NCBI RefSeq assembly: GCF_013170705.1
Contig: NZ_CP033334.1
Span: forward strand, 372,001-436,000
Source of the DNA: Mesorhizobium loti
Lineage (GTDB): Bacteria > Pseudomonadota > Alphaproteobacteria > Rhizobiales > Rhizobiaceae
Length of the DNA stretch: 64,000 bases
Reading direction: 5' to 3'
The notes beneath the pieces were generated by a model, which was not told the origin of the DNA, did no database searches, and worked only from the letters and a program-made list of their open reading frames with translations. Positions 24,709-29,276 of this stretch are shown piece after piece. How positions within the stretch are numbered: position 1 is the stretch's first letter; each line of letters opens with the position of its first letter. The position numbers and the translations under genes were made by a program.

Positions 24709-26120
24709 GACAAGCGGCCATGGACAATGCCATCGTGACCTCGCCTTCGGGCTCCTCGCCCACCGAGGCGCAAGCCTTTCTCGACGCCCATCCCGAGATC
24801 GAAGCCTTCGATATCGTGCTGACCGACGCCAATGGCGTCGGCCGTGGCAAGATCGTGCGCCGGCATGAGCTCAAAAGCATTTTCGAGGGCGGCCGGCACA
24901 TGCCGATCTCGATCCTCGGGCTCGACATCACCGGCGAGGATGTGCACGAAACCGGGCTGATCTGGACCACCGGCGACGGCGATCTCAGGGCCTGGCCGAT
25001 CCCCGGCACGCTGGTTCCGCTTTATGGAACCAGCCCGCCGCGCGGCCAGGTGCTTATGGCGATGTACCACCTCGATGGCCAACCAATGTCTTCGGATCCG
25101 CGGCTGGCGCTGGCACGACAGGTCGATATCCTCGCGGCCAAGGGCCTTTATCCGGCCGGTGCCTTCGAACTCGAATTTTTTCTCCTGGCCAACGAGCGCG
25201 ATGCCGACGGCAAGGTACAGCCGGCGCGTGCCGTGCTCGACGGCCGCGTCTCTGGCAAGACGGAAGTCTATTCCGTCGACCATCTGCACGGCATGGAGCC
25301 GCTGTTCTCGGACATCTATGCCGCGGCCAAGGCGCAGGGCATTCCGGCCGAGACGGTTATTTCCGAATATGCGCCCGGCCAATACGAATTGACGCTGAAC
25401 TACCGCAAGGACGTGATGCGGGCGGCCGACGATCTGGTCATGCTGAAGCGGCTGGTGCGGGCGCAAGCGCGCCGCCATGGCGTCACCGCCTGTTTCATGG
25501 CCAAGCCGATCGAGAAATATGCCGGCTCGGGCATGCATTTCCATGTCTCGCTGCAGGACAAGGCCGGCCGAAACGTGTTTGCCGAGGCCGGAGGCGAGAG
25601 CTGGTCGCTACCCCTCCTGCAGGGGCTCGGCGGCCTCATCCAGACGATGGCCGAATCGATGCTGGTGTTTGCGCCGCACGCCAATTCCTGGCGGCGTTTC
25701 GTCTCGCAATCCTACGCGCCGGTGGCGCCGACCTGGGGCGTCAACAACCGCTCGGTGGCGCTGCGCGTGCCGGCTGGCGACGCCAGGAACCGGCGCATCG
25801 AGCACCGGCCGTCCGGCGTCGACGCCAATCCTTACCTGATCGCCGCGACCGTACTCGCAGGCATCATCAAAGGTATCGACGAAGGACTCGATCCCGGTCC
25901 CGAAACGACTGGAAACGGCTATGAGGCGGCCGTCACCCGCACGACGATGCCGGCGGACTGGCGCGCGGCGATCGAAGCGGCCAAGGCCTCCAGCTTCCTG
26001 AAAGGCGCGCTCGGCGAGGACCTGCACCGCACCTTCGTTGCAATCAAGCAATCCGAATATCTGCGCGTGGCGCGCACGGTCAGCGAACTGGACTATCATC
26101 TCTACCTGCACGAGGTCTGA
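24705..26120 (+). CDS. Glutamine-synthetase-family ligase, possibly gamma-glutamyl-amine ligase
   Basis: A 471-residue ATP-dependent ligase that joins glutamate to an amine. Metal and ATP motifs of the GS fold are present: AFELEFFLL (E-x-E), GSGMHFHVSLQDKAG, and RIEHRPSGVDANPYLIAATVLAG. It lacks the adenylylation region seen in true GlnA. The family holds PuuA (gamma-glutamylputrescine synthetase) and GlnT-type enzymes, and the coupled class III aminotransferase upstream (ATGA overlap) supports an amine or polyamine pathway. ATG 24705 is chosen for the overlap; ATG 24720 is also possible. A hairpin with no T-run follows the stop. Confidence 0.86.
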   Translation: MRQAAMDNAIVTSPSGSSPTEAQAFLDAHPEIEAFDIVLTDANGVGRGKIVRRHELKSIFEGGRHMPISILGLDITGEDVHETGLIWTTGDGDLRAWPIPGTLVPLYGTSPPRGQVLMAMYHLDGQPMSSDPRLALARQVDILAAKGLYPAGAFELEFFLLANERDADGKVQPARAVLDGRVSGKTEVYSVDHLHGMEPLFSDIYAAAKAQGIPAETVISEYAPGQYELTLNYRKDVMRAADDLVMLKRLVRAQARRHGVTACFMAKPIEKYAGSGMHFHVSLQDKAGRNVFAEAGGESWSLPLLQGLGGLIQTMAESMLVFAPHANSWRRFVSQSYAPVAPTWGVNNRSVALRVPAGDARNRRIEHRPSGVDANPYLIAATVLAGIIKGIDEGLDPGPETTGNGYEAAVTRTTMPADWRAAIEAAKASSFLKGALGEDLHRTFVAIKQSEYLRVARTVSELDYHLYLHEV

Positions 26121-26134
26121 TGGCTGAGGATCGA

Positions 26135-26156
26135 GCGGCGATCACTTTTTCGCCGC
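26135..26156 (+). terminator. Possible terminator hairpin
   Basis: GCGGCGA and TCGCCGC pair over an 8-base loop containing TTTT, 15 bases after the ligase stop codon. No T-run follows. Confidence 0.35.
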
Positions 26157-26177
26157 CTGCATCAAATGAGGTAGCCT
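26149..26177 (+). promoter_or_regulatory. Possible promoter of the radical SAM/UdgX operon
   Basis: TTCGCC and TAGCCT are separated by 17 bases. It would start transcription near 26184, so that the LexA-type box at 26190 covers the first transcribed bases. The match to the -10/-35 consensus is only fair. Confidence 0.3.
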
Positions 26178-26189
26178 ACTGCCTCTGCA

Positions 26190-26204
26190 GAACATATCAT
26201 GAAC
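26190..26204. promoter_or_regulatory. LexA-type SOS box (GAAC-N7-GAAC)
   Basis: GAACATATCATGAAC matches the alphaproteobacterial LexA site, a direct repeat GAAC-N7-GAAC, exactly. It lies 2 bases before the start codon of a putative DNA-repair gene, which fits the damage-responsive control expected for it. By composition about one such match could occur by chance in 64 kb, so the location carries the weight. Confidence 0.7.
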
Positions 26205-26206
26205 AC

Positions 26207-27442
26207 ATGAGCGCACTCCCTGTTCGTGAAAAACTTGCGATCCTGTCCGACGCCGCCAAATATGACGCTTCCTGCGCCTCTTCCGGCTCGGCGAAAAAGG
26301 ATTCGCTGACGTCCGGCGGCATCGGCTCCACGGAGGGGATGGGTATCTGCCATTCCTACGCGCCGGACGGGCGCTGCATTTCACTCTTGAAAATCCTGCT
26401 CACCAATTTCTGCATCTACGATTGCAGCTATTGCATCAACCGTTCGTCCTCGAATGTACGGCGCGCCCGCTTCAGCATCGACGAAGTGGTGACGCTCACC
26501 ATGGATTTCTACCGGCGCAACTATATCGAGGGCCTGTTCCTGTCGTCAGGCGTCATCCGCTCGCCCGATGAGACCATGGGCGAGATGGTGGAGGTGGCGC
26601 GGCGGCTGCGGCTGGAAGAGAAATTTTCAGGCTATATCCATCTGAAAACGATTCCGGAGAGCTCGGCGGAACTGGTCGAGAAGGCCGGCCTCTATGCCGA
26701 CCGGCTGTCGATCAATGTGGAGCTGCCGACCGACGAGGGCGTGAAGAGGCTGGCACCGGAAAAGAAGCCGGAAACGATCCGCCTTTCCATGGCGAAGTTG
26801 CGCCAGAAGATGGAGGAGAAAGCCGAGCCGACACTTCGGACCAAAAAGCGCGAACGCTTTGCTCCCGGGGGCCAGTCGACGCAGATGATCGTCGGCGCCG
26901 ACAAGACGTCCGACGACGGCATATTGCATACCAGCGCCCGGCTCTATGGCAGTTATCATCTGCGGCGCGTCTATTATTCGGCCTTCAGTCCGATCCCGGA
27001 TTCATCGTCGTCCCTGCCCTTGCAGAAGCCCCCATTGATGCGTGAGCATCGGCTTTACCAGGCCGACTGGCTGATGCGGTTCTACGGCTTCTCACAACCG
27101 GAAATCCTGGCCGGCTCCAGCGACGGCATGCTCGATCTCACCATCGATCCAAAGCTCGCCTGGGCACTGCGCAACCGGGGGCGGTTCCCAGTCGACATCA
27201 ACCGCGCCGACCGCGAAGCGCTGCTGCGGGTCCCCGGTCTCGGCACCAAGGTGGTGGCGAAAATCCTGGAAACCCGGCGCCACCGGCGCATGCGGCTCGA
27301 GGATGTCGGGCGGATTTGCCAGTCGATCGCCAAGCTCAGGCCGTTCATCATCGCCGAGGGCTGGTCACCCGGAGCGCTCACCGACAAGCTGGGCTTGCGC
27401 GGCAAGATCGTGCAACCTTGCGAACAACTGGCGCTGTTTTGA
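26207..27442 (+). CDS. Putative DNA modification/repair radical SAM protein
   Basis: A 411-residue protein of the radical SAM family that is found next to UdgX-type genes. The 4Fe-4S cluster motif C-x3-C-x2-C is at Cys69, Cys73 and Cys76 (FCIYDCSYC). The N-terminus (EKLAILSDAAKYDASCASSGS) matches the family's opening, so the ATG at 26207 must be near the true start. The last quarter has a helix-hairpin-helix (FPVDINRADREALLRVPGLGTKVVAKIL), a DNA-binding element. The reaction is not known. It is 2 bases from the next gene, so both form one operon, apparently under LexA control. Confidence 0.88.
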   Translation: MSALPVREKLAILSDAAKYDASCASSGSAKKDSLTSGGIGSTEGMGICHSYAPDGRCISLLKILLTNFCIYDCSYCINRSSSNVRRARFSIDEVVTLTMDFYRRNYIEGLFLSSGVIRSPDETMGEMVEVARRLRLEEKFSGYIHLKTIPESSAELVEKAGLYADRLSINVELPTDEGVKRLAPEKKPETIRLSMAKLRQKMEEKAEPTLRTKKRERFAPGGQSTQMIVGADKTSDDGILHTSARLYGSYHLRRVYYSAFSPIPDSSSSLPLQKPPLMREHRLYQADWLMRFYGFSQPEILAGSSDGMLDLTIDPKLAWALRNRGRFPVDINRADREALLRVPGLGTKVVAKILETRRHRRMRLEDVGRICQSIAKLRPFIIAEGWSPGALTDKLGLRGKIVQPCEQLALF

Positions 27443-27444
27443 CC

Positions 27445-28914
27445 ATGCGGCCGGCCGAGTTCAACCTGGCCCGGTATAGTGTGCGGCTCGACAGCGAGAC
27501 TGATTTTGCCGGCTGGCGCGACGCGACACGGCGGCTGGCGTTGAACGAGGTCCGGCCCGAAGACATCAGCTGGCATGTCGTATCCAACTCGGAACAGGGC
27601 CAGACAGACTTGCCGACCGTTCCTGCGGGTACCCAGCTGGTCGTGCCACGCGACTTCATCGCGCGTGCCGAAACCGCCTTCTGCCATTCCGATCCCGGCC
27701 GGTTCGCCCTTCTTTACCGGATGCTTTGGCGATTGCGCACGGAGCCGAAGCTGCTGTCGATCGCATCGGATCCCGATACCAGGCGGCTCGAAGCCATGGA
27801 AAAGGCTGTGCGGCGCGACAGCCACAAGATGCATGCCTTCGTCCGCTTCCGGAAGATCGGCGACGGCGACGAGGAGCGCTACGTCGCCTGGTTCGAGCCC
27901 GATCATTTCATCGTCGAGCGCAACGCGGATTTCTTCGTCAGGCGCTTCACCGGCATGCGCTGGACGATCCTGACGCCCCACGCCTCGGCAGACTGGGATG
28001 GCAAAAGGCTGGCGATCGGGCCGGGCGCCGCCAAGGCCGATGCCCCGCCTCAGGACGATACCGAGGCGCTGTGGCGCACCTATTTCGAGAACATCTTCAA
28101 TCCGGCACGGCTGAAGGTGAAAGCCATGCAGAAGGAGATGCCGAAGAAATATTGGCGGAACCTTCCCGAGGCCTCGCTCATTCCAGACCTGATCGCAGGA
28201 GCGGACAAGGCCGCCAAGGAGATGATTGCCAGAATGCCGACGACGCCCGCGCCGCATCACGCCAAGGTGCAGGCAAAGCATTGGCCGAAGCGTGAACCAA
28301 CGCAGACGCCGGAAGATGACGACGCCAGCAGCATTTCAGGGTTGCGCGAGGCCGCGAAAGGCTGCCGCCGCTGCCCGCTCTGGCGCGACGCCACGCAGAC
28401 CGTGTTCGGCGAGGGGCCTGATAAGGCCAAGGTCATCTTCGTCGGCGAACAGCCCGGCGACCAGGAGGACCTCGCCGGCAAACCTTTCGTCGGGCCGGCC
28501 GGCAAGGTGTTCGATTCGATATTGGACGATGCGGGCGTCGATCGCCAGAAAGTCTACGTCACCAATGCGGTGAAACATTTCAAATTCGAGCCACGTGGCA
28601 AGCGCCGCATCCATTCCAAGCCGAATGCCGGCGAGGTGCAGGCTTGCCGCTGGTGGATCGACAGGGAATTCGCGCTGATCAAGCCGGAGCTTGCCGTGGC
28701 GCTCGGCGCAACGGCTGCACTGTCATTGCTCGGCAAGGCGATCCCGGTGACAAAAATGCGCGGCCAGGTCATCGAACGCGAGGACGGCTTGCGGGTCTTC
28801 ATCACCATCCACCCGTCCTTCATCCTGCGCATCCATGAACCAGCGGAGAAGGAGGCGGAGAGGGACCGGTTTTTGGCCGATATGAGGCAGGTGAAGCGGC
28901 TGATGGCCGCCTGA
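27445..28914 (+). CDS. DUF4130-UdgX fusion, uracil-DNA cross-linking glycosylase family
   Basis: A 489-residue two-domain protein. Residues 1-245 match the DUF4130 domain (AWFEPDHFIVERNADFFVRRFTGMRW). The C-terminal part is UdgX: it starts CRRCPLWRDATQTVFGEGP, with an iron-sulfur-cluster cysteine pair, then GEQPGDQEDLAGKPFVGPAGKV and KRRIHSKP with His390. In UdgX that histidine forms a covalent bond with uracil-containing DNA after excision. The domain order and its place next to the radical SAM gene are the known pairing. Start ATG 27445 is 2 bases after the upstream stop. A role in repair of uracil or damaged bases under SOS control is inferred. Confidence 0.88.
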   Translation: MRPAEFNLARYSVRLDSETDFAGWRDATRRLALNEVRPEDISWHVVSNSEQGQTDLPTVPAGTQLVVPRDFIARAETAFCHSDPGRFALLYRMLWRLRTEPKLLSIASDPDTRRLEAMEKAVRRDSHKMHAFVRFRKIGDGDEERYVAWFEPDHFIVERNADFFVRRFTGMRWTILTPHASADWDGKRLAIGPGAAKADAPPQDDTEALWRTYFENIFNPARLKVKAMQKEMPKKYWRNLPEASLIPDLIAGADKAAKEMIARMPTTPAPHHAKVQAKHWPKREPTQTPEDDDASSISGLREAAKGCRRCPLWRDATQTVFGEGPDKAKVIFVGEQPGDQEDLAGKPFVGPAGKVFDSILDDAGVDRQKVYVTNAVKHFKFEPRGKRRIHSKPNAGEVQACRWWIDREFALIKPELAVALGATAALSLLGKAIPVTKMRGQVIEREDGLRVFITIHPSFILRIHEPAEKEAERDRFLADMRQVKRLMAA

Positions 28915-29276
28915 ACCGGTGTTTCGTGCGGAACTTGGCGCAGCAGGCAAGTCGGATAGTGCTTGCGCTGGAGCGTCACATATCGTTGGAGGTTAGCCGA
29001 AACGTCTCCCTCCATCGTCATCCTGGGGCGAAGCAAGGAGCGAAGCGACGCGGCGCAGACCCCGGGATCCATGCCGCGACTTCAAGGCGCCGCTGCGGTG
29101 CAGAATTCTGCTGCGTTGCACCCACGACCAAGGTTATGGAATGGATCCCAGGGTCTCCGCGACGCTGCTGCGCGGCTGCTTCGCCCTAGACTAGGATGAC
29201 GAAGTTGAAAAGCTTCGGCCAATCGCCAACGGTCGTCGTCAATCCAACACTGTAAGCTTCGTTTGTCGCAGTCGAT
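28915..29276. other. 362-base intergenic region
   Basis: It is occupied mostly by the large palindromic repeat at 29016-29201, and otherwise holds no gene that I can see. The flanking genes converge here. Confidence 0.7.
29016..29201. repeat. Large palindromic intergenic repeat
   Basis: Imperfect inverted arms of about 60 bases: the left arm runs CGTCATCCTGGGGCGAAGCA to GACCCCGGGATCCAT, the right arm is its complement from ATGGATCCCAGGGTC to GGATGACG. This layout is typical of short palindromic elements dispersed between genes in rhizobia. It lies between convergent genes. Confidence 0.85.

Follow-up and report, generated by a model that had tools for sequence, protein, structure and literature searches.

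An operon of two genes in the soil bacterium Mesorhizobium loti, encoding a radical SAM protein and a DUF4130-UdgX fusion protein, carries a LexA-type operator (box) directly before its first start codon. Comparison of orthologous loci makes it probable that this is a LexA-repressed SOS operon, in which the radical SAM protein and DUF4130 form a lesion-processing pair and UdgX is a separable module fused at the C-terminal side. The operon lies in a 64,000-nucleotide (nt) stretch of assembly GCF_013170705.1 (NZ_CP033334.1, forward strand, 372,001-436,000), hereafter the window, whose first letter is position 1. Its main features are:

26190-26204, plus strand: LexA-type operator, exact match to GAAC-N7-GAAC (GAACATATCATGAAC)
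26195-26200, plus strand: predicted -10 hexamer TATCAT, seen in the sequence, inside the operator and ending 6 nt before the ATG
26207-27442, plus strand: radical SAM gene, 411 amino acids (aa), TIGR03916 (rSAM_link_UDG), by NCBIfam and Pfam
27445-28914, plus strand: DUF4130-UdgX fusion gene, 489 aa, by NCBIfam and Pfam

The radical SAM ATG (26207) is 2 nt downstream of the end of the box, and the partner coding sequence (27445) begins 2 nt past the radical SAM stop (27442). An initial annotation of this DNA had described both the exact site two bases before the radical SAM gene and the two-base distance between the genes, and we confirm both on the plus strand. The closest named proteins to the operon products are from Mesorhizobium.

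Taken alone, the box match in the window is not significant: the exact pattern occurs twice, versus a mean of 1.63 in shuffled sequence, and 43 of 100 shuffles held at least two copies. The second copy in the window, GAACTCGGCAAGAAC, lies at 94-108 on the minus strand, and its N7 is less A+T-rich than that of SOS boxes. The significance of the box comes from its position and its conservation across orthologous loci, not from a single window match. We compared 145 such loci, namely 38 from relatives, 27 further ones at class level and 80 named loci (the best 80 of 590); they are partly non-independent, as the sets overlap in some genomes; of 144 upstream 45-mers, 135 are distinct. In the 100 nt preceding the start, the box is present on the plus strand at 132 of the 145 loci and in either orientation at 137, whereas 300 dinucleotide shuffles gave means of 0.35 and 0.44, respectively, and a maximum of 4. 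GAAC is also the commonest of all 256 4-mer repeats spaced by 7 in the upstream regions of these loci. Within 250 nt of the anchor, a plus-oriented box was found at 36/38 relatives, 24/27 class-level loci and 73/80 named loci (0, 1 and 1 for the reversed control CAAG-N7-CAAG). These counts rule out a chance match as the full explanation; the initial annotation had allowed for such a match somewhere in the window and thought it unlikely at this promoter. A related view holds that the box is either a chance match or a conserved -10 element merely resembling a LexA box; chance alone would give one to two exact matches per window, and the N7 does overlap a -10-like hexamer. We consider this extremely improbable, given that shuffles reached at most 4/145, that both GAAC halves are fixed despite variation in N7 and in the distance to the ATG, and that the box faces the other way at some loci, for example L004, beside a divergent imuA-like gene.

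A scan of related genomes for the box had been proposed with the initial annotation; close relatives keep it with few exceptions. The two relatives outside the 36 are L004, whose opposite-orientation box lies between the radical SAM gene and the divergent imuA-like gene, and L041 (genome G049), a frameshifted copy with the box one base off. G049 additionally has a UdgX-only locus, L199, at the usual place, the frameshifted radical SAM operon being on another contig. Seven named loci are without a plus-oriented box: L147, L151 and L152 have the GTTC orientation, L142, L160 and L169 are one base different, and L131 is broken. No box was found at the class-level loci L062, L068 and L072. In the genomes of these three (G503, G285 and G492; completeness 100, 92 and 94%), the LexA model matches only from residue 77 on, or nowhere. 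The absence of the box where no full-length LexA match is present argues against the idea that another repressor sharing GAAC-N7-GAAC, and not LexA, reads it. In the M. loti genome, lexA and canonical SOS genes also have the same motif upstream, and such a repressor is, in our estimate, very unlikely.

In this genome, lexA (TIGR00498, over cut-off) has the box GAACACAACTGGAAC upstream, and boxes of the same form lie within about 100 nt of the starts of imuA, dinB, a second dinB (where the box overlaps the predicted start), parE, ssb and yifB. The imuA product scores 53.8 versus a curated cut-off of 150, and cut fragments of parE and yifB are likewise below their curated cut-offs. These genes are a partial regulon, sampled from 20 A+T-rich sites of the 73 GAACR-N6-GAAC sites of the genome and from four further places; among the sites inspected no recA was recognised, and no search was aimed at it. 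A scoring matrix derived from 90 radical SAM boxes of other genera, applied to the 73 sites, ranks the window box first, imuA third, the second dinB fourth, parE 9, yifB 10, dinB 14, ssb 17 and lexA 23. The boxes ranked 2, 5 and 6 (L060, L045 and L058; G000 C1:5764396, 1462074 and 5650102) adjoin genes that were not recognised as classical SOS genes, and these loci are candidates for unlisted SOS members. Overall, the assignment of the box to LexA, made in the initial annotation, is strongly supported by three lines of sequence comparison: its conservation, its recurrence at lexA, imuA, both dinB genes, parE, ssb and yifB, and the lack of a full-length LexA match in the boxless class-level genomes.

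The box lies close to the gene at many loci: of 136 loci (the start-codon table leaves out the frameshifted L041), 77 have it exactly 2 nt from the ATG and 97 no more than 5 nt away. Among distinct loci with a gap of up to 5 nt, TANNNT stands at -12 from the ATG in 44/89, versus 8/38 with a larger gap, and no other TANNNT offset between -22 and -5 exceeds 5% in either group. TTG is present at -35 in 19/89 and 6/38, respectively. Since the operator and a -10-like hexamer 6 nt ahead of the ATG overlap, we predict a leaderless transcript that starts at or beside the ATG (26207) and is occluded by LexA sitting on the -10 region. An alternative radical SAM start, the in-frame ATG at 26120, is less likely because no in-frame start codon precedes the box in 22 of 36 relatives with a plus-oriented box, although in four, counting the window, an ATG is found at this position.

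We then asked which gene the box goes with. UdgX is fused to DUF4130 in 126 of the 145 loci (37 + 16 + 73), and in 11 loci, comprising 9/27 class-level loci together with L127 and L128, the DUF4130 frame closes without a fused UdgX. The stand-alone DUF4130 versions of L127 and L128 are 276 aa long; the class-level stretches end 477-643 nt past the DUF4130 frame, so a separate UdgX could lie farther on there. With L013 and L073 the count would be 13; DUF4130 without UDG (uracil-DNA glycosylase) was scored there too, but the fetched stretch ends inside both frames, and the two are left out. A further comparison comes from one Mesorhizobium locus, beside a glutamine-synthetase-like gene. The radical SAM gene is present there in 19 of 66 genomes, all 19 with the exact box; in 37 it is missing while UdgX is kept, and the exact box is found in 1/37; 10 have neither gene. 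The 66 are drawn from 80 genomes with the glutamine-synthetase-like gene (30 by search and 36 chosen, mostly without an earlier radical SAM match), and 19 understates the frequency of the radical SAM gene at the locus because all 14 omitted genomes had a radical SAM match. Presence of the gene was scored by a tblastn match of more than 300 residues, without frame-by-frame check. In G507, G511 and G512, the search for a radical SAM gene covered this locus only. Two UdgX-only loci, L221 and L230, stop at a contig end less than 1 kilobase past the neighbour gene. A repeat-like stretch (GTCATCC..GGAGCGAAGCGACGCG..) lies 3' of the operon at about 28990-29160 of the window. In L237 (G041), a similar one is found 3' of the glutamine-synthetase-like gene, and the element is thus possibly an intergenic repeat dispersed through the genus.

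The UdgX left at the UdgX-only loci appears to be maintained, since GEQPG, KRRIH and HPS are all kept in 35/37 frames and the median pairwise ratio of nonsynonymous to synonymous substitution rates (dN/dS) is 0.17 (0.12 in the operon group). C-terminal remnants of DUF4130 differ among several of these loci (residues 201-243, 209-243, 214-234 and 229-243), which indicates several separate deletions. Loci without a remnant might instead descend from an older stand-alone UdgX. These patterns are best read as an SOS operator linked to the radical SAM gene and DUF4130, with UdgX as a separable module. In the opposite arrangement, UdgX would be the point of SOS control and cap stress-made uracil or abasic sites, while the radical SAM protein and DUF4130 would resolve or tune the UdgX-DNA cross-link. 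The UdgX motifs are intact in the window, the fusion prevails among the loci, and passages of PMC10359453 propose a role for UdgX under stress as a shield of abasic sites, with possible resolution of the complexes by RecA-dependent pathways. We nevertheless judge this arrangement unlikely, as UdgX persists with its motifs, apparently under constraint and nearly always without the box, at Mesorhizobium loci that lack the radical SAM gene, and as DUF4130 accompanies the radical SAM gene without fused UdgX at 11 loci (in the locus stretch). The same two counts do not support the emphasis that the initial annotation had placed on UdgX and deamination.

Several observations weigh against an operator tied to the radical SAM gene and DUF4130, or against SOS control as such. 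The pattern is not enriched genome-wide (154 GAAC-N7-GAAC sites versus 176 for the reversed control pattern), the -35 element of Mesorhizobium looks weak by eye, and L131 is missing an intact box. The UdgX-only locus of G021 keeps the exact box. In L122 and L123 (Jiella, Fulvimarina), neither a DUF4130 nor a UDG partner of the radical SAM gene was detected within the stretch fetched; the partner has possibly been lost, moved or become too diverged. Gene loss and box loss are not independent, because one deletion can remove both. On the best UdgX tree (L017 was left out for short cover) there are 7 gene/box changes, only 3 of them forced by well-supported branches, and an independent-pairs (sign) test gave a median p of 0.25, without power. 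Furthermore, no fold or sequence match points to the substrate of the radical SAM enzyme or to the fold of DUF4130.

Distribution and neighbourhood bear on what the operon is for. Within the genus, a family match is present in 32 of 73 genomes, broken in one of the 32, and such patchy presence would fit an anti-phage or mobile-element function in place of housekeeping SOS repair. However, PADLOC gave no match for the operon, only 2 relatives of the radical SAM protein (L188, L189) are on viral-collection contigs, and the operon occupies one chromosomal place in the 19 of 66 genomes described above, though it is elsewhere in some genomes. In other genera, moreover, imuAB-dnaE2 is nearby, and we give a defence or mobile-element role little credence. 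Within 4-kilobase flanks, imuA-imuB and/or dnaE2 accompany 13 of the 80 named loci. In 10 of them, imuA-imuB precede the radical SAM gene on the same strand, with 44-1249 nt between the end of the imuB frame and the radical SAM start; dnaE2 is downstream in 11, and both are present in 9, so that the radical SAM/DUF4130 pair stands between imuB and dnaE2 of the SOS mutagenesis cassette. In L152 and L004, imuA-like genes run divergently from the pair. For two examples, these names were confirmed by matches to Pfam IMS, DUF6504 and DNA_pol3_alpha and to an error-prone polymerase model; the ImuA score is weak. The cassette has the same box as the window operon; in the window's own genome, imuA is elsewhere, with its box at G000 C1:1067556.

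The proteins themselves have the following features, all within the two genes:

26273-26377, plus strand: span with extra cysteines C23, C48 and C57 of the radical SAM protein, invariant in 43/43 aligned proteins
26411-26434, plus strand: CX3CX2C cluster motif (C69, C73, C76), invariant in 43/43 aligned proteins
27191-27280, plus strand: helix-hairpin-helix-like stretch, residues 329-358, PF12836 at 24.6 bits, just below the gathering value of 27
27445-28173, plus strand: DUF4130/TIGR03915 domain, residues 1-243, by NCBIfam and Pfam
28177-28893, plus strand: UdgX domain, residues 245-483
28444-28458, plus strand: UdgX motif A GEQPG, every residue at least 90% conserved in 42 rows
28600-28614, plus strand: UdgX R-loop KRRIH with the predicted cross-linking histidine, from sequence aligned to 6ajo

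The radical SAM protein matches TIGR03916 with 560.5 bits (NCBIfam cut-off 343.5) and Pfam Radical_SAM with 40 bits. The extra cysteines are a possible auxiliary second metal site. The helix-hairpin-helix-like stretch, near which residues 281-382 also give weak ComEA and RuvA matches (E 0.07-0.24), probably contacts DNA. The second gene product exceeds the cut-offs of both TIGR03915 (213.9 bits) and TIGR03914 (329.8 bits) and matches Pfam DUF4130 and UDG. With both UdgX motifs in place, its description as a UdgX-type protein in the initial annotation holds. Motif A and the R-loop are described in the passages of PMC10359453 drawn on here, where the cross-linking histidine is H109. Solved UdgX chains that were matched have 205-229 aa; compared with UdgX of Mycobacterium smegmatis, that of the window is fused behind DUF4130 and stands in a radical SAM operon. 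An identity for DUF4130 was not credible from sequence (three PDB matches, best E 1), and in a fold search with the whole fusion the matches were filled by the UDG domain.

We take COG4277 to be the radical SAM family of this operon. Passages of PMC8565304 cite SOS regulation of a uracil-DNA-glycosylase-based COG1573-COG4277 pair as reported in Verrucomicrobia and Alphaproteobacteria (its references 7 and 65), extend it by prediction to Bacteroidetes, and give the alphaproteobacterial LexA motif as a GAAC/GTTC-N7 direct repeat. Membership of the regulon is therefore not new: the published operon is likewise a UDG-family protein and a partner gene under LexA. It is from another genus, and those passages mention neither a leaderless operator-promoter overlap nor a box that separates from UdgX. 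Our analysis adds these two points to them, and as a third the imuA-imuB and dnaE2 genes near 13 of the 80 named loci. According to the part of PMC3765255 considered, DUF4130 is a 'predicted mutagenesis-related enzyme' associated with SplB-like radical SAM proteins and UDG. That association and the link to SOS mutagenesis operons are common to the window operon. The same text groups the radical SAM protein with SplB-like photolyases. The window protein matches TIGR03916; SPL (SplB) does not occur among its listed fold matches or its sequence matches. In the open-licence literature we found no paper joining LexA and UdgX, nor one joining UdgX and radical SAM with either LexA or Mycobacterium smegmatis (the pairing of UdgX and radical SAM by itself lay outside the search).

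For the radical SAM/DUF4130 reading, we propose the following course of events. LexA on the -10 region would block the leaderless promoter until RecA-stimulated LexA cleavage frees it. The radical SAM enzyme may then dock on DNA through its helix-hairpin-helix stretch, aided by DUF4130, and process damaged bases by a 5'-deoxyadenosyl radical alongside ImuA-ImuB-DnaE2 translesion synthesis. Where present, UdgX would excise uracil and covalently cap the resulting abasic site. In its most specific form, the proposal is that the radical SAM protein and DUF4130 are a complete, UdgX-independent enzyme for SOS-induced lesion repair or base processing, working with the ImuB-DnaE2 mutasome under a leaderless LexA-occluded promoter; this we offer tentatively, as a conjecture with somewhat less than even chances. 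If true, it would add a radical-chemistry branch to the SOS response. An operator tied to the radical SAM gene and DUF4130, not to UdgX, would redirect the search for the substrate, and Mesorhizobium may provide a ready-made comparison at one locus, between genomes with the operon and genomes with UdgX only.

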